Origin: Lachnospiraceae bacterium
GTDB taxonomy: Bacteria > Bacillota > Clostridia > Lachnospirales > Lachnospiraceae
Assembly (NCBI GenBank): GCA_910574865.1
Contig: CAJTDN010000004.1
Span: forward strand, 278,220-342,219
Reading direction: 5' to 3'
Length of the DNA: 64,000 nucleotides
In this document: positions 8,710-61,757 of the stretch, piece after piece
Position numbering within the stretch: position 1 is the stretch's first letter
How the letters are laid out: the number at the start of each line of letters is the position of its first letter
Notes under the pieces: generated by a model
Told to the model about the DNA's origin: nothing
What the model saw: only the letters and a program-made list of their open reading frames with translations
The model's database searches: none
Made by a program: the position numbers and the translations under genes

Positions 8710-8738
8710 CACGAATCCTCCTGAATACCTTTCCTATA

Positions 8739-8978
8739 CTCGCCGCTTCACGCCTTCTTCACGCTCGCCGTTACACGCCTTCTCCACATTCGCCGTTACA
8801 CGCCTTCTCCACATTCGCCGCTTCACGCCTTCCCTGCGCTCGCCGTTACACGCCTTCTCCACATTCGCCGCTTCACGCCTTCCCCACTCTCGCCGTTACA
8901 CGCCTTCTCCACATTCGCCGCTTCACGCCTTCCCTGCGCTCGCCGTTTCACGCTTTCCCCTCGCGCGCCGCTTCGTCG
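8739..8978. repeat. 25-bp tandem repeat (minisatellite)
   Basis: Nine 25-bp units and a partial tenth, each built on CTCGCCGYTWCACGCCTTC plus a variable tail. Two unit types tend to alternate: a GTTACA form ending CTCCACA, and a GCTTCA form ending CCCTGCG. The array fills the gap between the VOC protein gene and the SDR gene and would be transcribed if they form one unit. A 25-bp unit is not a multiple of three, in keeping with a non-coding location. There are no spacers, so it is not a CRISPR array. Confidence 0.9.
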
Positions 8979-12211: not shown

Positions 12212-13042
12212 CTATTTTTTGGCAAAAATCCCCTTATGGATGGCATTTCCCATGGCCGAAAATTTTTCCTCGTACTCGCTCATGACGTTCCCCCGGTTCA
12301 TCACCCCGTCGTGGTGCAGGTCGCGGGTCACTGCCAAAACTTCCCACCCGGCCTCTTTTGCCTGCTGCAGGGAAAAATCGAACAGCCCCACGTTGTCCGT
12401 CTTGAATTCCACCGTCCCGCCGGACGCCAGAATTTTGCCAAACACCGCCAGGAATTCCTTGGACACCAACCGCCGCCTGGCATGCTTGGCCTTCGGCCAC
12501 GGGTCGGAAAAATTCAGGTAAATTTTTTCCACCTCGCCCCCGGCAAACACGTCCGCCAAACGGCCCGCGTCCATGCAGACAAAACGGACGTTGCCGAGAA
12601 ACTTCGCCACGTCCGTCTCCCCCGGGACTTCCGTCGCCGGCATCCCGCCCGGATCTTTGGTCACGCCCGTCTCCCCTGGGGCTTCCGTCGCCGGCATCCC
12701 GCCCGGATCTTTGGTCACGCCCGTCTCCCCCGGCGAATTCTTCCCGCTGGCCACCCCCCTCGCATCTGTCGCTCCGTCCACCCCGGCCACAAGCGCGTCA
12801 TACCGCTCCACCGCCCGCAAGAGGACGCTCGAGTACCGCTCTATTCCCACATAATTGATTTCCGGGTGCGTCTGCGCCATCTTCGTCAGGAACTGCCCCT
12901 TCCCCATCCCGATTTCAATATGGACGGGGTTCTCGTTTCCAAACACGCCCCGCCATTGCCCCCTTTTTTCCCCCGGCGCGTTTACCACCGCCGCATGGGA
13001 CGAAATCACCCCGTTCGCCCTCGGTATGTTCCTTAATCTCAT
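12212..13042 (-). CDS. trmB: tRNA (guanine-N7-)-methyltransferase with in-frame repeat insertion
   Basis: A 276-residue TrmB, which forms m7G46 in tRNA using SAM. The SAM-binding motif IEIGMGKGQFLT, the family signature YLNFSDPWPKAKHARRR, and the C-terminal EFKTDN and MSEYEEKF are all intact. Between the SAM motif and the conserved NVRFVCMDA segment it carries an extra stretch of about 55 residues, including two exact-length 18-residue repeats on PGETGVTKDPGGMPATE. Without it the protein would have the normal length of about 215. The insertion lies in a surface loop region and keeps frame, so activity is probably kept. AAGGGGAAATC precedes the ATG. Confidence 0.9.
   Translation of the reverse strand: MRLRNIPRANGVISSHAAVVNAPGEKRGQWRGVFGNENPVHIEIGMGKGQFLTKMAQTHPEINYVGIERYSSVLLRAVERYDALVAGVDGATDARGVASGKNSPGETGVTKDPGGMPATEAPGETGVTKDPGGMPATEVPGETDVAKFLGNVRFVCMDAGRLADVFAGGEVEKIYLNFSDPWPKAKHARRRLVSKEFLAVFGKILASGGTVEFKTDNVGLFDFSLQQAKEAGWEVLAVTRDLHHDGVMNRGNVMSEYEEKFSAMGNAIHKGIFAKK
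12614..12735. repeat. 54-bp direct repeat inside trmB
   Basis: Units begin CGTCTCCCC at 12614, 12668 and 12722: two full 54-bp copies and a short third. 54 is a multiple of three, so the reading frame is kept. Confidence 0.9.
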
Positions 13043-45235: not shown

Positions 45236-46567
45236 ATGGTAGAAAGCCAAAATATTGAATGGAAAGGATCGTGGCGTGACGATTATTTGAAATGGATATG
45301 TGGATTTGCTAATGCTCAGGGTGGAAGAATTTATATTGGTGTAGATGATACAGGTAAGGTTGTCGGTGTACAGAATGGGAAAAGGCTCTTAGAAGAAATA
45401 CCAAATAAGATTCAAACAAATCTGGGATTAATTACAGATGTGAATTTGTTTTCAAAAAACGGATTGGACTATATTGAAATTAATGTAAGTCCCAGCAGTT
45501 ATCCAGTAAGTCATAAGGGAGAGTATCATTTTCGGAGCGGCAGCACTAAGCAAATATTGCGAGGTGTGGCATTAACGGAATCTATATCCTCAAAAACCGG
45601 TATACGGTGGGAAGATTCTGTGATTGAAGGAGTGACGGCAGATGACTTGGATAAGGAAAGCTTTGATATTTTCCGCCGGGAAGCAATCCGAAGCAAACGT
45701 ATGACAAAAGATGATTTGAATATGAGCAATGCAGAACTCTTGGACAGTCTGGATTTGTTAAAAGATGGAAAACTTACTAGAGCTGCAGTTCTTCTTTTTC
45801 ATCGGACACCACAAAAATGGATGTTTGGAACTTATACAAAAATTGCAAAATTTGGGAAAGGTTCTGATTTGCAGTATCAGGACGAAGTGATAGGATCATT
45901 ATTTATGCAGGCCGAACGAGTAATCGAATTGATTTATTTGAAATATTTAAAGGCACCTATTACTTATGACAATCTAACTAGAGTAGAAACATATCCTTTT
46001 CCAAAAGACGCAGTGCGGGAAGCACTTTATAATGCACTTGTGCATTCTCGTTGGAGTGCCGGAATACCGATACAAGTCCGTATTGAAGACGATGCAATGT
46101 ATATTAGTAATGAATGCGTATTCCCATCCGATTGGACGATGGAGTCCTTGTTACAAAGGCATCAATCCCGACCATATAATCCCAAAATTGCGAGAGCGTT
46201 TTTTAGGGCAGGCTACATTGAAAGCTGGGGACGAGGGATTCAAAAAATCTTCGAAGTGTGTAACGAATACGGAACTTTACAACCGCAGTATGTGGTACAT
46301 TCACAAGATATTATGATAAAGTTAGCTGCTGTTTCAATATCTGATAAACAATTTTCAAAGCTGGATTCTAAAGCTGAAGATACAGCTTTGAAAATTAAAA
46401 TAGTGGAATATTTACAAAATCAACCAGCAGCAACGCAAAAAGAGTTGCAGGAAGCTTTCAACGAAACAAGGACACACATACAAAAAAATATGAAAGAATT
46501 GGTGAATGAGGGAAAAATAGAACGCAAAGGCGGAAAAAGATTTGGATATTGGGAAATCAAAAAGTAG
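45236..46567 (+). CDS. Schlafen/AlbA_2-domain ATP-binding protein (RecG-like regulator)
   Basis: A 443-residue protein. The N-terminal AlbA_2 domain starts ESQNIEWKGSWRDDYLKWIC and has FANAQGGRIYIGVDDTGKVV, typical of this putative nucleic-acid-binding fold. The middle HATPase-like part has PKDAVREALYNALVHSRWS and FFRAGYIESWGRGIQKI. The C-terminal part is a winged helix (QPAATQKELQEAFNETRTHI). Such proteins are frequent on mobile elements and may act as regulators or in defence; function is not known. The gene is AT-rich and starts after AGGAGGGACTTCGTTT, in a region of decayed genes, so it was probably acquired. Confidence 0.8.
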   Translation: MVESQNIEWKGSWRDDYLKWICGFANAQGGRIYIGVDDTGKVVGVQNGKRLLEEIPNKIQTNLGLITDVNLFSKNGLDYIEINVSPSSYPVSHKGEYHFRSGSTKQILRGVALTESISSKTGIRWEDSVIEGVTADDLDKESFDIFRREAIRSKRMTKDDLNMSNAELLDSLDLLKDGKLTRAAVLLFHRTPQKWMFGTYTKIAKFGKGSDLQYQDEVIGSLFMQAERVIELIYLKYLKAPITYDNLTRVETYPFPKDAVREALYNALVHSRWSAGIPIQVRIEDDAMYISNECVFPSDWTMESLLQRHQSRPYNPKIARAFFRAGYIESWGRGIQKIFEVCNEYGTLQPQYVVHSQDIMIKLAAVSISDKQFSKLDSKAEDTALKIKIVEYLQNQPAATQKELQEAFNETRTHIQKNMKELVNEGKIERKGGKRFGYWEIKK

Positions 46568-49968: not shown

Positions 49969-50013
49969 AAAAAAATTTACCAAGTGTTCATTTCAAAGGA
50001 GGAGAAACACACC

Positions 50014-51582
50014 ATGAGTTTCAGCAAATTTTTTGACAACCCGCTTGTCAAGACCAAAATCACCTCGGCGAACGTCAAGCCGCCGGAAATGATCCTCGGG
50101 TACTTGCTCGGACCGTTCTGCGCCTTGATTTCCAATGCCACGTTCGGTTCCTACCTGAATCGTTACTATTCGGACATCCTGGGCTGGACCGACGCCACGC
50201 GTTTCGGCGTGTTCTCGGCGCTGCTGCCGATGATTTCCGTCATCTTCGTCATCATCGGAAATCTGTTCGTCGGCCGCCTGCTTGACAAGACCCGCACCTC
50301 GCAGGGCAAGGCACGCCCGTACCTTTTATTGTCCGCGCCGCTTGTCATGGTTGCCATCGTGACTTTGTTCATCGTGCCAAAGGACGCTTCGCCAATATTA
50401 CAGATGGCATGGATTGCCATTTCCTACAACCTATACTACGCGGTGTCCTACCCGTTTTACTACACGGCACACAGCTCGCTGGTCGCCCTCTCCACGAGAA
50501 ATTCCAACGACCGCGGACTGTTGGCGACGCTTTCCAACGCCTCCGGCGTGGCGGCGGTGGGAATCGGCGCAAGCATCCTGATTCCGATGCTGTTAAACGA
50601 CTTCCTCTTCGTCCCCAAGGCGGACGGCGGCATCGACGCGGCGGCCAGCTACGGAAACTGGAAAATCGCCATGGTCGTTTTGTGCATCACCACGTTGATT
50701 GGCATCTTAATCGAGTATTATTTCTCCCGCGAGCGTATCACGGAAGAAACGATGAAGATGGATGCCGAGGAAAAACAAGTGTCCATGGTCGAACAAATCA
50801 AGGCCTGCACGGGCAACAGTTACTGGTGGATCATCATTCTTTACTTCCTGCTCTTCCAATTTGGCGGGCTGGTAAAAAATGGTTCCATGACCTACTACTG
50901 CACGTGGGTGTTTGAAGGCATCGCCCCCGGCACGGCACAAGGGTTGTTAGGCGCGATTGGCGGCATCCCGACCGCCGTCGGCATGATCCTGGCCTGGCCA
51001 ATCGCGAACAAGCTGGGCAAACAACGTTCGGTCGTGCTCGGACTGGCCATCTCCGTCATCGGCGGGTTGGTAAGCTTCTTAAACGTCCACAGCTTCGTCA
51101 TTGTCTGCATCGGCATTATCCTGAAGGGAATCGGGTCCATCCCGGCCATGTACGTGACGCTGGCACTTTTATCCGACGTTTTGGACCACCTGGAGGCGAA
51201 AAACGGCTTCCGCTCGGACGGCTTCACGATGAGCGTCTACGGGGCCATCATGGTCGGCATGACGGGACTGGGAAGCGGCGTCATCAACATGCTGCTCTCC
51301 TCCGCCGGTTACGACGCCAGCCTGGCCACGCAGCCCGGCAGCGTGGAAACGATGCTTGTGGTGTGCTATCTGGCCATCGAGCTGGTGTGCTACGCCGTCA
51401 TCGTCGTGCTGATGAGCTTCTTGAAGGTGGAAAAACATATCGACGAAGACCATAAGACAATCCTGGAAAACCAGAAGGCGGCGGTACTGGCCGCGGGCGG
51501 CGAGTGGATTGATCCCGAGGAACGGCTAAGACGCGAGCAGGAAGAAGCCGAACGGTTGGCCGCGGAAAGCAAGAAAAAATGA
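50014..51582 (+). CDS. GPH-family sugar:cation symporter
   Basis: A 522-residue glycoside-pentoside-hexuronide symporter with about twelve membrane helices. Typical blocks are RYYSDILGWTDATRFGVFSA, FVGRLLDKTRTSQGKARPY, the YPFYYTAHSSLVALSTRNSN signature, and LALLSDVLDHLEAKNGFRSD. The C-terminus is a long charged cytoplasmic tail (RLRREQEEAERLAAESKKK). It likely imports the glycosides cut by the GH78 and GH3 neighbours. AAAGGAGGAGAAACACACC precedes the ATG 50014. Confidence 0.9.
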   Translation: MSFSKFFDNPLVKTKITSANVKPPEMILGYLLGPFCALISNATFGSYLNRYYSDILGWTDATRFGVFSALLPMISVIFVIIGNLFVGRLLDKTRTSQGKARPYLLLSAPLVMVAIVTLFIVPKDASPILQMAWIAISYNLYYAVSYPFYYTAHSSLVALSTRNSNDRGLLATLSNASGVAAVGIGASILIPMLLNDFLFVPKADGGIDAAASYGNWKIAMVVLCITTLIGILIEYYFSRERITEETMKMDAEEKQVSMVEQIKACTGNSYWWIIILYFLLFQFGGLVKNGSMTYYCTWVFEGIAPGTAQGLLGAIGGIPTAVGMILAWPIANKLGKQRSVVLGLAISVIGGLVSFLNVHSFVIVCIGIILKGIGSIPAMYVTLALLSDVLDHLEAKNGFRSDGFTMSVYGAIMVGMTGLGSGVINMLLSSAGYDASLATQPGSVETMLVVCYLAIELVCYAVIVVLMSFLKVEKHIDEDHKTILENQKAAVLAAGGEWIDPEERLRREQEEAERLAAESKKK

Positions 51583-51718: not shown

Positions 51719-54700
51719 ATGAAAGCAACAAAAAGTAATCGAACCGCGATGCGCCGCTGGCGCGGCGTCACGACCCTCACCGCGTCCGTCCTCGCCCTGG
51801 CGGTAGCGGCCGGCCCCATCGTCAATTCGTTCCGCACGGACATTGACAAGTTCCTCGGAACGTCCAGCACGAAGCTGGTACACGACGGTGACGAGAACAT
51901 TTCAGAGGTTTACACCTACACTTCCGACTATGAAAGCACGACGGAATTGGTAAAGGCCATCGAAGACCTGGGCGAGCGCATGAACGAAGAGGGCAGCGTC
52001 TTGCTGAAAAACAACGGCGCGCTGCCCCTGACGGCCGACGAGACGCAAAAGGTGTCCCTGCTCGGATTTTCCAGCTATTATCCGGTCATGGGCGGCGACA
52101 TGGGATCCTCCCTCACGCCAAACGTGGGAACCGACGCGGACACGATCGACTTCGTTCAGGCATTGTCCGCGAAGGGTTTCAAAATCAACGGCAAGATACA
52201 GGATTTATACAAAACCTTGGAACCACAGTTTACGACAGAAATTGACAACTGGGGAAACAAATCCATTTTCACGAGAATCACGGCCCCGTCAATTGGGAGC
52301 ACGTTCTCCAGCAAGGAGCCATCGCAGGCCATCATGGACGAGACGGACGCGGGCTGGAAGGATAGCTTGAAAGAGGACAACGTCATCATCGTCACCCTCG
52401 CCCGCGCGGCAGGCGAAAACCGTACATACCTGCCAGGCACGGACGGCGTGGACGCGTCCCAGAACTTAAACCAGACCGACCCGCTGGGACTCTCCGATGA
52501 CGAGCGCGACCTCGTTGCCGCTGCCGTGGAGAACAAAAAGGCCAACGGCGGAAAGGTCATCGTGCTTTTGAACAACGCGAGCGCCATGGAAATCGACGAG
52601 TTGAAAAATAATGACGACATTGATGCCATGCTGCAAATCGGCTTGCCGGGCGGCTACGGCTTTTACGGCGTGGCAGACATCCTCTCCGGCGAGGCCAATC
52701 CGTCCGGACACCTGACCGACACCTACGCGGTGGTCAACGCGAACGCCCCGTCGGCACAAAACTTTGGCGATTTTCCATATACGAACGGAAATCCGGCATA
52801 CAGCATCAACTCCGTACAAGTGGAGGCCGAAAACATTTACATCGGGTACAAATATTATGAGACGCGCTACATGGACTGCGTACTGGGAGAAGGCAACGCC
52901 TCCGCGGCGGTCGGCAGCACCGATGGCAATGCGTGGAGCTACAATAACGAGGTGTCCTATCCATTTGGATATGGCCTAAGCTACACGACCTTCGAGCAAA
53001 AGCTTGACAGTCTGGACGTGGATTTAGAAAATAAGACCGTCACCGCCAAAGTGACCGTTAAAAACACCGGCGACGTGGCTGGCAAGGACGTGGTGCAATT
53101 GTACGTTTCCACCCCGTACACCAGCTATGACAAGGAACACGGCATTGAGAAAGCCGGCGTACAGCTCTTGGATTACGCGAAGACCGACGTGCTCGAAGCC
53201 GGCGCGTCCGAAACCGTGACCATCGAGGCCGACATGCAATACATGGCAAGCTGGGACAGTTCTTCTGACAATGCCGCCGGCACGAAGGGCTGCTACATTT
53301 TGGATGCCGGAACGTATTATTTCTCCTTGGGAAACGGGGCGCACGAAGCAGCCAACAACGTGCTTTCCGCGCAGGGCAAGAGCACGGCAGACGGCATGAC
53401 CGGGGCCGGGGATGCCGCCATGACCGCGACGTGGAACCTTGAGTCGCTTGACAACGAAAGCTTCGCCCTCACCAAGAACGGCACGGCCGTGGAAAACCAG
53501 TTGGAAGACATGGATTTGAATTACTGGATGCCAGGCACGGTAACGTACATGACCCGCAGCGACTGGGCGGGGACTTTCCCGAAGACTTACGAGAATTTGA
53601 CCGCGACGGACGAAATGCTGGCCGTCCTGGACAATGACAATTACGAAATTTCCGCTGACAACGGCGATACGTCCGCCATCACCTTCGGCGCGGACAACGG
53701 GCTGACCCTGGCACACTTGAAAGGTGTCGATGACATTGACAATCCAGACTACGCCAAATTGCTAGACCAGATTACGTTGGAAGAATGCCTGATTCGCACC
53801 GGCTTTGGCGGCACAAGCACGAAGGCCATCGACTCCATCCATTCCCCGGAGGCGGTACAAAACGATGGGCCGAACGGCATTTACTCTTATCCGCTTGGAC
53901 AATATGCGAACACCGACGCGTCAACGGGCGACCCGTGCGCGATTGACGCGAACGACAAGAACGCGGGCTACATGGCCGGTGTCATGAGCAACGAGACCGT
54001 GATTGCCCAGACATTTAACAAGGATTTGGCAAAGGAATTCGGCCAGGTGATGGGCAACTACTCCTTGTGGGCGAACCTGCCAATTTACTGGGGTTGTGGC
54101 ACGAACCTGCACCGTTCCCCATACAACGCACGTAACCACGAATATTATTCCGAGGACGCGATTCTGACCGCGTACCAAGGCGCGAACTTCGTGGAAGGCG
54201 GCATGGAATATGGCTGTCTGATTGCTCCGAAGCACTTGGCATTTAACGACTCGGAAATCAACCGTACCGGCATCAGCGTGTTCATGACCGAGCAACAAGC
54301 GCGTGAAAATGAATTGCGTGGCACGCAGGCCGTCATTGAAGACGCGGGCGCGCTGGCCGTCATGACCGCTTATAACCGTGTCGGCGTGTACACCGACAAC
54401 TCCCATACGGGACTGTTAATCAACATCCTGCGCGGCGAGTGGGGCTTTAAAGGACTGATGAGCGAAGACTTCATCATGGACGCGAATTACGTTTGTCTGA
54501 AAGAAGCCATCTTAAACGGCGTGACGATGAGCTGCAATACCGGCGACAACACGATGGACGCCATCACCGAGAAATATGGATACTGGACCGTGGAAAACGT
54601 CGGAAAGGACGCACGGCTTTTGACCGCCTTAAAGCAGGCAATGACCTACCAGGCATACGCATTGGCAAATTCCAACGCGATGGACGGCTACACCCCGACC

Positions 54701-54820
54701 ACGCACCTGGTTACCGTGAACACGTGGTATGACAACTTGATTCTCGGACTGCAAATCGCGTTCGCGCTGCTGACACTCCTTGGCGTCGTCATGTACATGC
54801 GTTCCGCCAAGAAGAATTAA
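51719..54820 (+). CDS. Membrane-anchored GH3 glycosidase with permuted domains
   Basis: A 1033-residue GH3 enzyme whose domains are in reverse order. The (alpha/beta)6 sandwich is first (MNEEGSVLLKNNGALPLT), then a fibronectin-III-like domain (DVAGKDVVQLYVSTPYTSYD), then the TIM barrel (about residue 680 onward). In the barrel, FKGLMSEDFIMDANY carries the likely nucleophile Asp917. Reversed GH3 enzymes are known from ruminal Clostridia. There is a hydrophobic helix at residues 16-36 and another at the C-terminus (LILGLQIAFALLTLLGVVMY, basic end), so the protein seems anchored at both ends, with the catalytic part outside. TAAAGGAGGTTTCGTACC precedes the ATG. Glucosidase or xylosidase specificity cannot be told. 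Confidence 0.9.
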   Translation: MKATKSNRTAMRRWRGVTTLTASVLALAVAAGPIVNSFRTDIDKFLGTSSTKLVHDGDENISEVYTYTSDYESTTELVKAIEDLGERMNEEGSVLLKNNGALPLTADETQKVSLLGFSSYYPVMGGDMGSSLTPNVGTDADTIDFVQALSAKGFKINGKIQDLYKTLEPQFTTEIDNWGNKSIFTRITAPSIGSTFSSKEPSQAIMDETDAGWKDSLKEDNVIIVTLARAAGENRTYLPGTDGVDASQNLNQTDPLGLSDDERDLVAAAVENKKANGGKVIVLLNNASAMEIDELKNNDDIDAMLQIGLPGGYGFYGVADILSGEANPSGHLTDTYAVVNANAPSAQNFGDFPYTNGNPAYSINSVQVEAENIYIGYKYYETRYMDCVLGEGNASAAVGSTDGNAWSYNNEVSYPFGYGLSYTTFEQKLDSLDVDLENKTVTAKVTVKNTGDVAGKDVVQLYVSTPYTSYDKEHGIEKAGVQLLDYAKTDVLEAGASETVTIEADMQYMASWDSSSDNAAGTKGCYILDAGTYYFSLGNGAHEAANNVLSAQGKSTADGMTGAGDAAMTATWNLESLDNESFALTKNGTAVENQLEDMDLNYWMPGTVTYMTRSDWAGTFPKTYENLTATDEMLAVLDNDNYEISADNGDTSAITFGADNGLTLAHLKGVDDIDNPDYAKLLDQITLEECLIRTGFGGTSTKAIDSIHSPEAVQNDGPNGIYSYPLGQYANTDASTGDPCAIDANDKNAGYMAGVMSNETVIAQTFNKDLAKEFGQVMGNYSLWANLPIYWGCGTNLHRSPYNARNHEYYSEDAILTAYQGANFVEGGMEYGCLIAPKHLAFNDSEINRTGISVFMTEQQARENELRGTQAVIEDAGALAVMTAYNRVGVYTDNSHTGLLINILRGEWGFKGLMSEDFIMDANYVCLKEAILNGVTMSCNTGDNTMDAITEKYGYWTVENVGKDARLLTALKQAMTYQAYALANSNAMDGYTPTTHLVTVNTWYDNLILGLQIAFALLTLLGVVMYMRSAKKN

Positions 54821-54986: not shown

Positions 54987-55415
54987 ATGAAAAGAAAAAC
55001 ATCTGCCGGTCTGTTTATGACCGCGATTTCCATCATTGCCGCCGTCGTTGGTTTCATCTATTATATGATGAACTGTAACACGGCCTACTTTGCCAACTTG
55101 GGCGTAAACCCGGTCGTAATCGGCTGCATCGTCGCCGCCATCGTTTTGCAGGTCGTCCTAATCATTGTCGGAATGAAAGGCCAGCCGATGTGGATCGACA
55201 TTTTGCCCATCGCCATTTCCGTATTTCTGATGCTTGGCACCATCAATTTCGTAAGCGCCCGCGTCAATGGCTTCGCAGCCATCCTCACGTTTGAGAACAA
55301 CGCGGAAAACATGGCCGACCTAAGTAGCGCGATTATCGGCATTGCGGCATGCCTGATTGCCACCGTCGTGAGCATCGTGGCATCCTTCTTCGATGTCACG
55401 AAAGAGGCGGCGTGA
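54987..55415 (+). CDS. Four-helix membrane protein next to GH3
   Basis: A 142-residue protein with four membrane helices: LFMTAISIIAAVVGFIYYMM, GCIVAAIVLQVVLIIVG, WIDILPIAISVFLMLGTINF, and AIIGIAACLIATVVSIVASF. TAGGGAGGTTTCATT precedes the ATG. Small membrane proteins of this type often follow membrane-bound GH3 genes in Lachnospiraceae; they may be a partner of the glycosidase, but nothing is established. Confidence 0.7.
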   Translation: MKRKTSAGLFMTAISIIAAVVGFIYYMMNCNTAYFANLGVNPVVIGCIVAAIVLQVVLIIVGMKGQPMWIDILPIAISVFLMLGTINFVSARVNGFAAILTFENNAENMADLSSAIIGIAACLIATVVSIVASFFDVTKEAA

Positions 55416-55836: not shown

Positions 55837-57969
55837 ATGAAAAGGATAAATCAAAAAATATCCGGCAGTTTATTATTTAGAACCTTTACTTTTTTGATAC
55901 CGATTTTATTGTTCATGTTTTCCATGGCATGCCTTGTCTCCTGCGCACAAAGTGAAAAACGCACCTCTGATTCCTCACAAGACGACGTGCAGTTTTGCCA
56001 AGTCGTTCTGGAAGACAATGAGGCTTTTGTAGCAAAAGAATCGGTTCTGCGCGTTCCGCGCGGCGGGACGGCCGTATTTTCCTTGCGCGTAAATGAAGGG
56101 TACACGCTTATCGGTACTGATTTTTCCGATTCTGCCAATGCCATGCTCCAAATGGACGGTACAAGCGCAACTTTGACAATCCACAACGTGATTTACCCCG
56201 CCGTGGTTTCCATCATGGCAGACAAAACCCCCATAACAATACAATATGCCGCCAATGGCGGGACGCGCCTGGACGGTTTAGACGCGTCCATGCCCATAAG
56301 CATCGATGTCACTGACTCCAAGCTACGCCACAACACGTCTGTCGGCATTGACTTGTTTTCCCGCGACGGCTTCACGCTGATTGGTTGGAACACCGCCCCC
56401 GACGGAAATGGAACCGCCGTGGGACTAGGCAGCCGCGTCGCCTGGGAAGAGGGCCTGACATTGTATGCCCAGTGGAGCAAGTGGACGGACGACTCCTTCT
56501 TTTCCTTTGAAATCCGTGGCGACGGCGCGATCATTACCGGGTTTCGAAGTACAGAATTCCACACTGGTGCAAATACGTCAGTAACTGGTGCAAATGCGTC
56601 AGTAACTGGCGGTTCACCAGATTCGCGGATTGCGGATGCGACTGGCGATTTGCCAGACTTACGGGTCGCGAATGTGGAGGCAGGCAGTGACATACTGACG
56701 ATTCCGGCCAATTTAGGCGGCCATCCCGTGCTTTCCATTGACGAATATGCCTTTCAGAATTGCCCGGCCAAGACCGTCATTTTGCCGCCCGGCCTTAAGA
56801 GCGTCCGTGCCTACGCCTTTTGCGGCTCCGCGCTTGAGACCCTCTATCTGTCTGATGACATTGTAAGCGTGAGCGACTACGCCTTCAAAGATTGCCCTGA
56901 TTTTTCCACGCTTCACGTCAACGCGGTGGAAGCTCCCGTGTACGGCACGAATTATTATGCGACGTTCCAGGACAAATTCGACCGTCTCGTCTCTTTGCGG
57001 GACGAAAAGAAAATCGTACTCTTTTCCGGTTCTTCCACGCGTTTTGGTTATGACAGCGAAATGATTGACGACGCTTTTCCCGATTATGAAGTAGTCAACA
57101 TGGGCGTTTTTGCTTATACGAATGCCTACCCGCAGCTTTTGCTGATTCTTGACAATATGCAAAAGGGCGACATTTTGTTGCATTCCCCGGAATTTGATGC
57201 CGCACAACGGCAATTTTGCGTCCGCACGGAATTAGACGCCCCCTTCTTTTGCATGATGGAGGCAAATTATGACACTCTCGCCTTGCTGGATTTACGGGAG
57301 ACCACCCTGGTTTTCACGGCGTTCAATTCCTATTTAAAAACAAAGGAATCCCTGCCGCCGCAAAACTATTCCCTCTCCCCCGCCGATTATGACGAGGACG
57401 GAAACCCGCTCGCGGCGAATGGCCATGAGGATGGCACGCATTCCAGCACGGCGAACGATTACGAAAATGGCGCAAATCCCAATGCGGCGAACGATTGCGA
57501 AGATGGCACAAGTTCCAACGCATGCAAGAGCTACAATGAATATGGGGATTATGTTTTGTACCGCCCGAATGCCGATACGGACGAACCCGTTTATGGCCTG
57601 GGCGTAGAATACACCGTGTCCGCCTTTCCCGCCAATTTTATCGAATCCTTGAACCAAGCGTACTCCCGTTTCCTGCAAAATGGCATTACCGTCTATTTTG
57701 CCTACGCGCCGCGCAACCGCCTCGCCCTCTCCGAGGAAAGCACGGAAACAGAACGTGAAAAATTACACGCTTACTTTCAAGAAACGCTCCTCGTCCCCGT
57801 GATTTCCGAATTGGAGGACTCACTATATCCGGGCCGCTATCTTTACGGCACGGACAACCACCTTTCCACCGAAGGGGTCGCGATGCGCACGGAAAGCATT
57901 ATAGAAGATTTACAAAAACAAATGGAGCGAGACAAGCTGGAAGACACGAACACGAATCGGAAACAATGA
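55837..57969 (+). CDS. Lipoprotein with InlB-type repeat, LRR and SGNH-like domain
   Basis: A 710-residue lipoprotein. A signal peptide ends in the lipobox LVSCAQ. Domains in order: a Listeria-Bacteroides (InlB B-type) repeat around residues 125-210 (TIQYAANGGTRLDG ... GFTLIGWNTAPDGNGTAV), then BspA-like LRR_5 repeats (VLSIDEYAFQNCPAKTVILP, SVSDYAFKDCPDFSTLHV). The C-terminal SGNH-like domain has Ser399 in VLFSGSSTRFGYDS and Asp673-x-His675 in GTDNHLSTEG. Tandem repeats interrupt it at 56563 (21-bp units) and 57415 (36-bp units). GGAGGCTTGCGC precedes the ATG 55837. With the MBOAT gene behind it, an O-acyl-transfer role at the cell surface is likely; the acceptor is unknown. Confidence 0.8.
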   Translation: MKRINQKISGSLLFRTFTFLIPILLFMFSMACLVSCAQSEKRTSDSSQDDVQFCQVVLEDNEAFVAKESVLRVPRGGTAVFSLRVNEGYTLIGTDFSDSANAMLQMDGTSATLTIHNVIYPAVVSIMADKTPITIQYAANGGTRLDGLDASMPISIDVTDSKLRHNTSVGIDLFSRDGFTLIGWNTAPDGNGTAVGLGSRVAWEEGLTLYAQWSKWTDDSFFSFEIRGDGAIITGFRSTEFHTGANTSVTGANASVTGGSPDSRIADATGDLPDLRVANVEAGSDILTIPANLGGHPVLSIDEYAFQNCPAKTVILPPGLKSVRAYAFCGSALETLYLSDDIVSVSDYAFKDCPDFSTLHVNAVEAPVYGTNYYATFQDKFDRLVSLRDEKKIVLFSGSSTRFGYDSEMIDDAFPDYEVVNMGVFAYTNAYPQLLLILDNMQKGDILLHSPEFDAAQRQFCVRTELDAPFFCMMEANYDTLALLDLRETTLVFTAFNSYLKTKESLPPQNYSLSPADYDEDGNPLAANGHEDGTHSSTANDYENGANPNAANDCEDGTSSNACKSYNEYGDYVLYRPNADTDEPVYGLGVEYTVSAFPANFIESLNQAYSRFLQNGITVYFAYAPRNRLALSEESTETEREKLHAYFQETLLVPVISELEDSLYPGRYLYGTDNHLSTEGVAMRTESIIEDLQKQMERDKLEDTNTNRKQ
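56563..56604. repeat. 21-bp tandem repeat in coding sequence
   Basis: ACTGGTGCAAATRCGTCAGT units start at 56563 and 56584, with a partial third at 56605; they encode TGANxSV. The frame is kept. Confidence 0.85.
57415..57522. repeat. 36-bp tandem repeat in coding sequence
   Basis: Three 36-bp units begin GCGAAYG and encode variants of ANDxEDGxxxxx, in a loop of the SGNH-like domain. The frame is kept. Confidence 0.85.
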
Positions 57970-57974
57970 CAAGC

Positions 57975-58157
57975 CGACCACCTAACAAAAAGTACACACC
58001 GGCAAACTTACCGCCCAACAAAATGTGCACGACGGCAAACTTACCGCCCAACAAAATGTGCACGACGGCAAACCCGCCGCCCAACAAAATGTGCACGACG
58101 GCAAAACGCCGTCCAACAAAATGTACACGACGGCAAACCGTCGTCCAACAAAATGCA
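57975..58157. repeat. 33-bp tandem repeat leading into a ribosome binding site
   Basis: About five and a half units of 33 bp (one is 32) on CCGCCCAACAAAATGTGCAC plus GACGGCAAAC. The last unit is broken at CAACAAAATGC and continues AGGAGGTAACC, the ribosome binding site of the next gene. Six copies of AACAAAA precede candidate ATGs, but none has a ribosome binding site. It is not a CRISPR array since no spacers are present. Confidence 0.9.
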
Positions 58158-58167
58158 GGAGGTAACC

Positions 58168-58338
58168 ATGAAGCAAAAAATAATTGCCCTCGCCACATTT
58201 TTAATCGCTCTCCTTGTCGTTACGGGACTTTTCGTGGCACTCGTCATGGGAGCGACCTTGCAGGAATTATTGACTCCCCTGCTCGTGCTCCTTGTCGGAT
58301 ATCTGATTATATTCTTACGTCAGGAAAAAGGGGGCTGA
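58168..58338 (+). CDS. Two-helix mini-protein of the acyltransferase locus
   Basis: A 56-residue protein with two membrane helices, IIALATFLIALLVVTGLFVA and LTPLLVLLVGYLIIFL. AGGAGGTAACC precedes ATG 58168; it ends 3 bp before the MBOAT gene. Its position before an MBOAT is like that of the DltX/small helper peptides, though the sequence is not the DltX type. Probable helper or assembly factor of the MBOAT. Confidence 0.7.
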   Translation: MKQKIIALATFLIALLVVTGLFVALVMGATLQELLTPLLVLLVGYLIIFLRQEKGG

Positions 58339-58341
58339 AAA

Positions 58342-60120
58342 ATGAACTTTACTTCATTGGATTTTTTACTTTTCCTTCCCGCCACGCTCCTGCTCTGCCG
58401 TCTTTTTCCCGCGCGTTTTCGTTGGCCGCTTTTACTTGCGGCAAGCTATTTTTTCTATATGCGATATACGCCATGGGTCGGTCTGCTGCTTTTCGGGGCG
58501 ACCTTCGTCTCCTGGTTCTGCGCGGGAAAAATCGCTGTTGCACACGAGGGCGATTCGATAACGCGAACGGCCAAAATGACGGCACATGAGAACGACGCGA
58601 CATACGGATCGCGGCATGCGAACATGCGGACGATGACATCAAAACATTCCCGACCGGGGAAACGTTTCTGGCTGACGCTTGGTATCGCGACCCCGCTCGC
58701 CTGCCTTTTCATTTTTAAATACATGGGCTTTTTGGGACAGATAATCGAGTCCGTTTTCGGGCTTTTTTTCGGGAAACCCATGGATTCCTTATGGGGTAAA
58801 TCCGCAGGCTTCTCATGGGACATTCTGCTACCGGCCGGAATCTCATTTTACACGTTCCAGACGTTGTCCTACGTCATCGACGTCTACCGAAAGAACCTGA
58901 AGCACGAGACGCACTTTGGCTACTACGCGCTTTACGTCTCCTTTTTTCCACAGCTCGTTGCCGGGCCAATCGAACGCCCCGGAAACCTATTGCCGCAATT
59001 AAAACGGGAGAACGCCTTTTATCCAGAAAATCTGCTTCCCGGCTTTTGTCAAATGCTAATTGGATTCTTCAAGAAACTGGTCGTGGCGGACTACCTCGCC
59101 CGCTTTGTTGACGTTGCCTTTGCCTCCCCCAAACTCGTACAAGGACCAGGAGTCGCTCTGGCCGCCTGCCTTTTCGCGATACAAATTTACTGTGATTTCT
59201 CCGGGTACTGTGACATTGCGGCAGGAGTCGCCGGGATGCTCGGTATCCGCCTGGTGAAAAATTTCGACCGTCCATATTCAGCGGGCAGCATTCGTGAATT
59301 TTGGCATCGGTGGCACGTCAGCCTGACAAGCTGGTTCACTGATTATATTTACATCCCCCTCGGCGGAAGCCGCAAGGGAATTTGGCGGCAAACATGCAAC
59401 GTGCTAATCGTATTTTTCATCAGCGGACTGTGGCATGGAGCGGCGTGGCATTATGTTCTGTGGGGATGCATCCATGGAATGTACTTGACGGCCGGCATCC
59501 TCTACCATAAGTTCATCACGCGCCATGTGACACGCACCGCAACCGGTTCACGCAGAACGAATGGAGACGCAGCCGGTTCGCGCCAAACCAACAACCGCGA
59601 CAAGCGCACGTCCACTCCACACCAAGACGATAAACACGACAAACACGCGCCTTTTTGCTACGGCTGCAACGTCCCCATACAGTTCGCCCACAAGCTTTGG
59701 ACGTTGACCCTCGTCTGTTTCGCCTGGATTTTTTTCCGGGCGCAGACCGTTTCCGACGCCTTCGCGATGGTGTCACATCTGGGAAACGGCTGGAACGCAA
59801 ACGGCATCGCGGCCACCGTGAACCTCCTACAAATAACGCCGCTCGACATAGGGCAGACCGCGCTCATATTGCTCGTGCTTGAACTTTTGGAAAAATTCGG
59901 AAAAATTATGGAACACGAAACAACGCACGATGAGGGGTACAGCACGGGACATGGCACGGGACATGGCGCGACTCGCGACGCGCAAAACTCGTCTCATCAA
60001 ACGAATTCCTCCCCCCTGCAGGCCGCCATCATTTTTTACCTGATTTTAACCATCTGCACTGCGTGGCTAACGTTGTTATCACAAAACGCGGCAGGAACGT
60101 TTATATATTTTCAATTTTGA
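58342..60120 (+). CDS. MBOAT-family O-acyltransferase (AlgI/DltB type)
   Basis: A 592-residue membrane-bound O-acyltransferase with about eleven helices. Signatures: PAGISFYTFQTLSYVIDVYR, SFFPQLVAGPIERPGNLLPQ, DFSGYCDIAAGVAGMLGI, FWHRWHVSLTSWF and the catalytic His365 in SGLWHGAAWHYVLWG. AlgI relatives pass acyl (usually acetyl) groups from the cytoplasm to an SGNH partner outside. Two cytoplasmic loops and a third C-terminal loop carry extra low-complexity stretches (HEGDSITRTAKMTAHEND; TATGSRRTNGDAAGSRQTN; STGHGTGHGATRDAQNSS). AAAAAGGGGGCTGAAAA precedes the ATG. It is flanked by the two SGNH/LRR genes. Confidence 0.9.
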   Translation: MNFTSLDFLLFLPATLLLCRLFPARFRWPLLLAASYFFYMRYTPWVGLLLFGATFVSWFCAGKIAVAHEGDSITRTAKMTAHENDATYGSRHANMRTMTSKHSRPGKRFWLTLGIATPLACLFIFKYMGFLGQIIESVFGLFFGKPMDSLWGKSAGFSWDILLPAGISFYTFQTLSYVIDVYRKNLKHETHFGYYALYVSFFPQLVAGPIERPGNLLPQLKRENAFYPENLLPGFCQMLIGFFKKLVVADYLARFVDVAFASPKLVQGPGVALAACLFAIQIYCDFSGYCDIAAGVAGMLGIRLVKNFDRPYSAGSIREFWHRWHVSLTSWFTDYIYIPLGGSRKGIWRQTCNVLIVFFISGLWHGAAWHYVLWGCIHGMYLTAGILYHKFITRHVTRTATGSRRTNGDAAGSRQTNNRDKRTSTPHQDDKHDKHAPFCYGCNVPIQFAHKLWTLTLVCFAWIFFRAQTVSDAFAMVSHLGNGWNANGIAATVNLLQITPLDIGQTALILLVLELLEKFGKIMEHETTHDEGYSTGHGTGHGATRDAQNSSHQTNSSPLQAAIIFYLILTICTAWLTLLSQNAAGTFIYFQF

Positions 60121-60224
60121 CGATGCCGGATCAAAAGATCATGCTTGCATAAAGAACACGACTTTGAAACCCGCAAAAAGGCACCAAAAAGTATCCGTTT
60201 TTCAACGAAAGGACAAACCCAGCC

Positions 60225-61757
60225 ATGAAACCGAACCGCAAAATCCTCATTTACATGAACATGTTCCTTCTGCCGCTTCTGCCGCTGGCGTTATGTTTCT
60301 GCGCCTTTTTCCTGCCCCCGCAGTACGAGGAAAGTTTTATGGGCGAATTGAAATATAAATGTAACCGCCTAAATAAAACCGATGGGAACCGCATTATTTT
60401 CGTCGGCGGCAGCGGTGCGGCGTTCGGCATCGACTGCGCGTTGGTGGAAAATGCCTTTCCAACCCGAAAGGCCGTCAACTTTGGAATGTACGCGGCACTT
60501 GGCACGACGGTCATGCTGGATCTGTCCGAGGATGACGTGCGCGAGGGCGACATCGTAATCGTCATGCCGGAACAAGACCCGCAAACGCTCAGTTGCCATT
60601 TTAACGGCGAATACATGTGGCAAGGCGCGGACGGCGCGTTTCATTTACTTTTCCAACTCAATCGGGAACATTTACGTGCCATGATTGGACAGTTTCCTTA
60701 TTTTGCCACCAAAAAATGTGCCTATGTGCTTTCCGGACAGCCTCCGCAACCAGATGCGATGTACCGCCGCAATTCCTTTAACGAATATGGCGACATCGAC
60801 CTTTCTGCCTGCTCTGCCAATATCATGCCGAACGGATATGACTCAAACACGCCCATCCGTTTTGACGAGGCCGTATTGTCGGACGATTTCATAAAAGAGC
60901 TAAACGAATACACGGACACGTTGACACGGCGCGGTGCCACCGTCTGGTATTATTTTTGTCCGATAAATAAATTGGCCGTTGCAAATGATGCCGATATTGA
61001 CGTATACTATGACTATCTGCAGTCCCGCCTCCATTGCCAGATTATAGGCAATCCCCATGACTGCATAATGGAATCCGGCTGGTTTTACGATACCAACTTC
61101 CATTTGAATAATAGCGGGAAAATCGTCTACACCCGCAATTTGATTCGCGCCATCAAGGCGGCGCTCGGCGACAGCACGCCCACGCGAATCACCTTGCCGC
61201 AGATGCCACTATTAGGCGATTCCTCTAACGTGGACTCCGGCCTGCACGATGACGCTTCAAACACGGGCTTCAACCTGCACGATGACGCTTCAAACGCGGA
61301 CTCCGGCCTGAACGGGGATGGCCCAAACACAGGATCCGACCTGCATGGCAATGGCTTAAACGCGGATTCCGACTGCTTCACCTGGGAAATCAAGGACGGC
61401 GCCGCCGTCCTGACGGGATTGACCGCAGAAGGGCTCACTCGCGAAGAACTGACGGTTCCCGCCAATTTGGACGATTGCCCGGTCAACCGGCTTCCTGCCG
61501 ACATTTTTGCAGGCAATACCGTCTTGCGCGTCGTCACGATACAAGAAAATATTCGCGCCATTGACGACTATGCCTTCTCGGGATGCGACACATTGGAAAC
61601 CATACGCATGCTTCACGTATTGCCACAACATTGCCTGGCGGGGCAACATTTATTGGATGGGACAAACGCCATCCTCGCGGTCGATGCGGACTTGCAAACA
61701 CAATATCTTTTAAACTACACATGGTCAACATACGCGGAACGAATTCGCGGAGAATGA
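60225..61757 (+). CDS. SGNH-like protein with C-terminal LRR domain
   Basis: A 510-residue membrane-anchored protein. One N-terminal helix (MFLLPLLPLALCFCAFFLP) is followed by an SGNH-like domain with Ser63 in IIFVGGSGAAFGID and D289-TNF-H293 in YDTNFHLNNSGKIV. Then comes an Asp/Gly-rich linker of four 33-bp-encoded repeats (SGLHDDASN type), and a C-terminal LRR_5 domain (TVPANLDDCPVNRLPADIFA, IRAIDDYAFSGCDTLETIRM). Domain order is the reverse of the first SGNH gene of the locus. CGAAAGGACAAACCCAGCC precedes the ATG. Probable extracellular acyl-acceptor partner of the MBOAT. Its stop overlaps the start of ybaK. Confidence 0.8.
   Translation: MKPNRKILIYMNMFLLPLLPLALCFCAFFLPPQYEESFMGELKYKCNRLNKTDGNRIIFVGGSGAAFGIDCALVENAFPTRKAVNFGMYAALGTTVMLDLSEDDVREGDIVIVMPEQDPQTLSCHFNGEYMWQGADGAFHLLFQLNREHLRAMIGQFPYFATKKCAYVLSGQPPQPDAMYRRNSFNEYGDIDLSACSANIMPNGYDSNTPIRFDEAVLSDDFIKELNEYTDTLTRRGATVWYYFCPINKLAVANDADIDVYYDYLQSRLHCQIIGNPHDCIMESGWFYDTNFHLNNSGKIVYTRNLIRAIKAALGDSTPTRITLPQMPLLGDSSNVDSGLHDDASNTGFNLHDDASNADSGLNGDGPNTGSDLHGNGLNADSDCFTWEIKDGAAVLTGLTAEGLTREELTVPANLDDCPVNRLPADIFAGNTVLRVVTIQENIRAIDDYAFSGCDTLETIRMLHVLPQHCLAGQHLLDGTNAILAVDADLQTQYLLNYTWSTYAERIRGE
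61224..61376. repeat. 33-bp tandem repeat in coding sequence
   Basis: Four 33-bp units and a partial fifth encode 11-residue variants (xNxDSGLHDDA) between the SGNH-like and LRR parts of the second SGNH gene. The frame is kept. Confidence 0.85.

Follow-up and report, generated by a model that had tools for sequence, protein, structure and literature searches.

Positions 55837-61757 of a 64,000-nucleotide stretch of DNA from a Lachnospiraceae bacterium (the window; source genome of 5.33 Mb in 82 contigs) carry a gene set that, in our judgement, probably encodes an extracellular O-acyltransferase of the MBOAT-SGNH type that employs a pair of SGNH proteins. Such systems, built on a membrane-bound O-acyltransferase (MBOAT), decorate bacterial envelopes with acyl groups. 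Open reading frames (ORFs), all on the + strand, encode in this order protein A, a mini-protein, the MBOAT and protein B. The original prediction had described an MBOAT with its catalytic His, a two-helix mini-protein and two proteins that join SGNH domains to leucine-rich repeats (LRRs) in opposite order, and ORFs, Pfam matches and structure models agree on this content. Its assignment of A as a lipoprotein of repeat-LRR-SGNH order and of B as a membrane-anchored SGNH-LRR protein is borne out by the lipobox, the N-terminal helix and the models, and the acylation reading is upheld by the MBOAT His, the FxYxxF tail, the SGNH folds and the conserved linkage. It had not included the FIYFQF tail, the neighbourhood of glycoside hydrolase family 3 (GH3), transporter and kinase genes, the fact that the mini-protein is conserved, the fused B-A frames or the branch with acyl-CoA ligases.

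The strongest sign that A and B may act together comes from fused reading frames. In L080 (1,027 residues) and L116 (1,116 residues), a single open frame reads SGNH-LRR-List_Bact-LRR-SGNH, that is, B followed by A. We searched for relatives of A with a pattern-based scan using the A alignment across 84,980 species genomes; this gave 41 loci, of which 35 (L062-L096) were kept. Both peptide patterns of the scan lie within the List_Bact repeat, so relatives of A without that repeat were missed. Neighbouring genes were identified by six-frame profile searches, and our main counts refer to the 21 loci at which A is flanked on each side by 5.5 kb of sequence or more. The original prediction had staked its reading on the genes being kept together in relatives, and they were: the MBOAT is present at 18 of the 21 loci and B likewise at 18. 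Across all 35 loci, the counts are 26 for the MBOAT, 25 for B and 27 for GH3. Several loci are close kin (five Clostridiales metagenome-assembled genomes form one tight group in the tree), so locus counts are not independent. Neither gene was found at three of the 21 loci, namely L071, L072 and L092. In the genome of L071 the two genes are adjacent on a different contig, and that of L092 contains several copies. Because MBOAT and B each occur at 18 of 21 loci, and because B-A fusions exist, we rejected chance linkage of these genes.

The set is rare. A match was found in 7 of 397 genomes of the family, the source genome included, and one of these (G284) has only an LRR-less SGNH protein beside its MBOAT; in a phylum-wide sample searched at a strict threshold, the source genome was the only match among 398. 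Within the genus, four other genomes of 12 have the set, with the G009 contig ending before the expected B, and in G007 a broken locus remains (L035:1923-3892), with the MBOAT in two frames and fragments of B. As a control, we applied the same profiles to seven other MBOAT loci of the genus with at least 10 kb of sequence (L029-L034, L036) and found an LRR-SGNH partner at none of them; these profiles were built from the A/B family, so that an unrelated LRR-SGNH partner would escape, and further MBOAT loci of the genus were too short to judge. One control locus, in the congeneric genome G002 (L031:8274-10683), combines an MBOAT and a B-like SGNH protein free of LRRs within an apparent polysaccharide gene cluster, as judged from the ORF list. 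Carriers of the gene set include some gut and digester Clostridia, among them four named strains: Schaedlerella arabinosiphila DSM 106076, Eubacterium plexicaudatum ASF492, Blautia schinkii DSM 10518 and Blautia sp. MSJ-19.

Protein A (55837-57969, + strand) is a lipoprotein with the lipobox LVSC, a beta-rich N-terminus, a List_Bact repeat, BspA-type LRRs and a C-terminal SGNH domain, as judged from its ORF, Pfam, a structure model, fold matches and the lipobox pattern. The List_Bact_rpt/Flg_new repeat (residues 134-212; 56236-56472, + strand) scores below threshold in the window, at 24.1 bits, and was matched in 26 of 32 A relatives, themselves partly found through that repeat. LRR_5 (residues 298-361; 56728-56919, + strand; 8.7e-11) was matched in 31 of 32 at E 0.01. 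Fold matching and conserved residues place the SGNH domain at about residues 371-700 (56947-57936, + strand), and the model (mean pLDDT 84) combines the folds of SGNH enzymes and BspA-type LRR proteins. We aligned 32 of 36 A rows (alignment A4), leaving out L069, L078, L080 and L083, which are cut or fused. The catalytic candidates on the + strand are S399 (57031-57033) and D673 to H675 (57853-57861): H675 is invariant (32/32), the Asp of the D-x-H motif is kept in 31 rows, and S399 is kept in 27, with Cys in the other five. Relatives with Cys for Ser are encoded at L085:5705-7540, L086:2003-3898, L091:8289-9830, L093:9292-11127, L095:7926-9761 and L116:6786-10133. A lipobox-like pattern occurs in 23 of 36 rows; six of the other 13 begin inside the protein owing to the chosen first residue.

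Protein B (60225-61757, + strand) has an N-terminal membrane helix, an SGNH domain and C-terminal BspA-type LRRs (residues 377-510; 61353-61754, + strand), on the evidence of its ORF, model, fold matches and helix. Its model (mean pLDDT 87) again combines SGNH and BspA-type LRR folds. In alignment A5, which holds all 25 separate B rows selected, the putative nucleophile S63 (60411-60413, + strand) is invariant, as are D289, N291 and H293 of the D-x-N-x-H stretch (61089-61103, + strand), each in 25 of 25. LRR_5 was matched in 23 of 25 B proteins at E 0.01, with the window's B on its own falling under the Pfam cut-off. A and B are related, since each is matched by the SGNH profile of the other, and the Ser block precedes the His block in every aligned A and B. 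The alignment to TesA (1j00) starts at residue 54 of B and residue 390 of A; if it is ungapped there, the catalytic serine of TesA, which we take to be Ser10, would fall on S63 and S399. DltD is the best Foldseek match for both proteins. By sequence, none of the Pfam SGNH families (DltD, DUF1574 and others) matched any of the 25 B and 32 A proteins at E 0.01, and the window's A reached only 13.2 bits against DUF1574 (E 0.056; cut-off 29.1). In sequence searches of solved structures, all 47 chains matched by A, and those among the matches of B that were listed (60 of 90), are LRR proteins or LRR-bearing constructs by name, with no named SGNH enzyme; the sole exception in the lists for A and B is a chance-level phage collar protein (E 0.88).

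A and B could be parallel transferases, both loaded from the MBOAT tail and serving different acceptors or positions with no hand-over, as would suit two related proteins that each keep a conserved Ser and His and carry their own LRRs, and of which A alone shows a Cys nucleophile. The fusions and the frequent pairing suggest joint work on one substrate; they do not exclude parallel action, which we regard as possible but doubtful. Alternatively, the SGNH domains could be inactive scaffolds and A and B LRR adhesins that stand beside an ordinary MBOAT by accident. BspA-type LRRs do occur in cell-surface proteins, with solved examples, and the triad of B is irregular. However, Ser and His are kept across strong divergence, the LRRs are very short, and an MBOAT with a shuttle tail is kept together with A and B, all of which makes the adhesin account highly improbable.

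The MBOAT itself (58342-60120, + strand; PF03062, 7.3e-33) has as its nearest solved structures, by sequence profile, DltB (6bug/8jem). We found 27 MBOATs, of which those of L069 and L091 are cut by contig ends; alignment A6 holds 24 of the 27, without L065, L069 and L091. Both H325 and H365 are invariant (24/24). The protein ends in FIYFQF (60100-60117, + strand), which contains Y589 and fits the FxYxxF acyl-shuttle motif as interpreted in PMC12148441, and the tail residues F587, Y589, F590 and F592 (F-x-Y-F-x-F) are likewise invariant in all 24. According to that paper, the motif Tyr of PatA is auto-acetylated in a manner that needs the catalytic His, the acetylated peptide donates to the SGNH partner, and DltX bears the same FxYxxF motif (PMC12148441).

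The mini-protein (58168-58338, + strand) is preceded by AGGAGG five bases upstream of its start and consists of two hydrophobic helices without FxYxxF; the motif does not end the mini-protein in the window or in the relatives inspected. It is under purifying selection (dN/dS 0.26), which counts in favour of the proposed acyltransferase. At 26 of 27 loci the MBOAT is preceded by a small hydrophobic ORF whose end lies no more than 40 bases from the MBOAT start, a count in which the most hydrophobic candidate was picked, which favours a match; profiles alone found the mini-protein at 15 of 35 loci. Many of the candidate frames share a G-x-[ST]-[LM]-x-E-like stretch. Because the shuttle Tyr motif is missing, the mini-protein is probably an assembly subunit.

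Tandem repeats occur within and between these genes. Repeat segments lie within A (56563-56609 and 57431-57519), the MBOAT (59942-59967) and B (61287-61373), and a 33-base tandem array with no second copy in the genome separates A from the mini-protein (57984-58155). Set against L025, the closest orthologue, the window shows 14 insertions that are at least 18 bases long, 10 of them with a length divisible by three; the reverse comparison gives none.

We propose the following course of events. An acyl group from cytoplasmic acyl-CoA would be transferred, on the outer side of the membrane and with the help of H365, to Y589 of the FIYFQF tail. Membrane-anchored B would take it from the MBOAT Tyr on S63 and would either pass it to S399 of A or work beside A, and A, the protein with the larger number of modules, would place it on a cell-surface glycan. 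The short LRRs and the beta modules of A may hold A, B and the acceptor together, with the mini-protein serving assembly. The Tyr and Ser acyl intermediates are modelled on published PatAB and Dlt work, and the order B then A on that of AlgJ then AlgX; an acyl-CoA donor, a glycan acceptor and a holding role of the LRRs are what we consider most likely for each. The original prediction had gone further and proposed acylation targeted by the LRRs. This claim is unsupported: nothing points to a particular ligand of the LRRs, the LRRs of A and B comprise two or three repeats only, and AlgX is already an SGNH partner with a binding module.

Several observations weigh against the proposed acyltransferase. 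The gene set is without any known activity. The original prediction had let its reading depend on a proper Ser/Asp/His geometry; judged from conservation, Ser and His hold for both proteins and D-x-H for A, but B lacks an Asp at position -2 or -3 relative to its His (Asn stands at -2, Asp at -4) and its triad is irregular. The nucleophile position is Cys in five of 32 A proteins and in the A half of L116, and the Asp of D-x-H is replaced by Asn in L089 and by Ser in L116. The match of B to DltD in Foldseek gives a poor superposition (by query length, TM 0.27 to 0.28), and DltD and PatB do not figure in the 50 rows of a second aligner for B, yet this is no evidence against kinship; nor is the absence of alginate proteins from the 50 rows of that aligner for A. 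The MBOAT of L065 lacks the tail motif, and the FxYxxF tail is not special to the set, as most of the other MBOATs examined in the genus terminate in it too. The L072 genome (a 1.9 Mb assembly) has A, with no dedicated MBOAT or B detected. Finally, among the neighbours scanned with Pfam (part of all neighbours) there were no polymer-synthesis genes, and the context suggests no acceptor; the acceptor could therefore be a self-glycan or a captured glycan.

The MBOAT tree (36 rows) contains a 17-row branch that includes the window (support 96/99) and a 10-row branch (100/99), with L116 and L059 outside both. A single origin of the whole set was considered and not adopted: 28 rows join (92/87), and L116 and L059 are excluded though they stand beside LRR-SGNH proteins, a result made unsure by midpoint rooting and the long L059 branch. 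GH3, a 142-residue protein and a symporter are frequent in the 17-row branch, where the loci covered by the profile scan gave a ligase-like match in L067 only, about 4 kb past A. In the 10-row branch, an acyl-CoA-ligase-like gene is present at all eight loci scanned for it, which fits acyl-CoA as the donor; L060 lies outside this count, and L117, also of this branch, has no ligase in 14 kb. The ligases checked with Pfam or NCBIfam (L085, L089, L094) are PF00501 enzymes nearest to acyl-CoA ligases, with scores too low to pass the specific NCBIfam models listed; the best solved relative of the L094 enzyme is a feruloyl-CoA synthetase. A short-chain dehydrogenase sits between ligase and MBOAT in L091, and a GtrA-like membrane protein stands by the ligase in L089. 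No carrier protein was among the few proteins of this branch that were scanned.

The gene set lies in a sugar-catabolic setting. Upstream in the window, on the + strand, are a GPH-type sugar:cation symporter (MFS_2; 49984-51582; PF13347, 5.5e-68), a GH3 enzyme that both begins and ends in a hydrophobic helix (51719-54820; Pfam and helices) and the 142-residue protein with four hydrophobic helices (54987-55415); GH78 is a further neighbour, and a GHKL kinase and a LytTR regulator lie further up. GH3 is conserved at 20 of the 21 loci, on either strand, the exception being L065. Other neighbours at these loci are the MFS symporter (14), the 142-residue membrane protein (13), a histidine kinase (9), GH43 (8), acyl-CoA ligase (7) and GH2 (5); outside the window, Pfam-scanned neighbours include GH43, GH2, GH5 and kinases. 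With so many hydrolases alongside, transfer could be the task of B, with A acting as an esterase that strips sugars of their acyl groups before GH3, GH43 and GH2 act, a form of surface acyl editing; most of the top SGNH fold matches of A are indeed esterases, lipases or thioesterases. The fold, however, is unable to separate esterase from transferase, and A remains linked to the MBOAT and, at two loci, forms a single gene with B, so we consider an esterase role unlikely. More speculatively, the acyltransferase might work as a two-stage relay within a sugar-utilisation locus, the mirror-order LRRs of A and B clasping each other and the acylated glycans, own or captured, being those handled by the linked membrane-anchored GH3 and other hydrolases, such that acylation decides which sugars are cut; one branch would use a special acid activated by its dedicated acyl-CoA ligase. 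We offer this only tentatively. Elsewhere in the window we noted a Schlafen/AlbA_2 protein with a RecG-type C-terminal domain and winged helix (45236-46567), and tandem arrays at 8738-8974 (25-base unit, 9.5 copies) and 12608-12733 (54-base unit, 2.3 copies).

The chemistry itself is familiar; what is unusual is that the SGNH partners carry LRRs, in opposite order, that the mini-protein lacks the motif, and that the setting is sugar-catabolic. None of these three features was found in a literature search that covered mainly papers outside subscription. Among the matches listed, reports of SGNH with LRR were plant or fungal by title and none combined SGNH with BspA, and a term search of the main text of an SGNH-family review (PMC9487903) found neither 'leucine' nor 'LRR'. 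With its natural B-A fusions, its mini-protein devoid of the motif and its consistent association with GH3 and other catabolic genes, this family makes it possible to test in gut bacteria whether one SGNH protein hands over to another and whether acylation is linked to the use of sugars. To our knowledge, the need of one MBOAT for two SGNH proteins has been worked out mainly for alginate.

Comparison with known systems places the gene set near, and apart from, each of them. Like PatA-PatB, it has an MBOAT with a catalytic His and a C-terminal FxYxxF tail and a separate extracytoplasmic SGNH protein; in the text available of PMC12148441, however, PatB is the only SGNH partner, no LRR is mentioned and these pathways are said to have no DltX-like microprotein, whereas here there are two LRR-bearing partners and a motif-less mini-protein. 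The Dlt system (DltB, DltD, DltX) shares the nearest solved MBOAT by sequence, the best Foldseek match for both A and B, and a small membrane protein next to the MBOAT. Unlike in Dlt, FxYxxF is on the MBOAT and not on the mini-protein, the MBOAT reaches 148.9 bits where the DltB model TIGR04091 requires 375, and the Pfam DltD family is unmatched. Plain Dlt D-alanylation was set aside on the DltB score, on a mini-protein devoid of the DltX motif, and on the absence of DltA and DltC among the 12 window proteins scanned with Pfam (part of the window's genes). In alginate acetylation, a single MBOAT works with two SGNH proteins; polymer binding is a property of AlgX and is weak or undetectable for AlgJ (PMC4148444). 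The present set resembles AlgI-AlgJ-AlgX in having one MBOAT with two SGNH-like proteins, of which AlgX has an extra carbohydrate-binding module, and A has the same D-x-H spacing (PMC4148444). AlgJ is described as circularly permuted, with His before Ser (PMC4148444), unlike A and B, and we rejected membership in the AlgJ/AlgX family on this block order, as the Ser block comes first in all aligned A and B. Further, no alginate genes were seen, and LRRs stand where AlgX has its carbohydrate-binding module. With BspA-type surface proteins, A and B share LRR_5 repeats and their fold; what sets A and B apart is that only two or three such repeats are present and that these are fused to SGNH domains.

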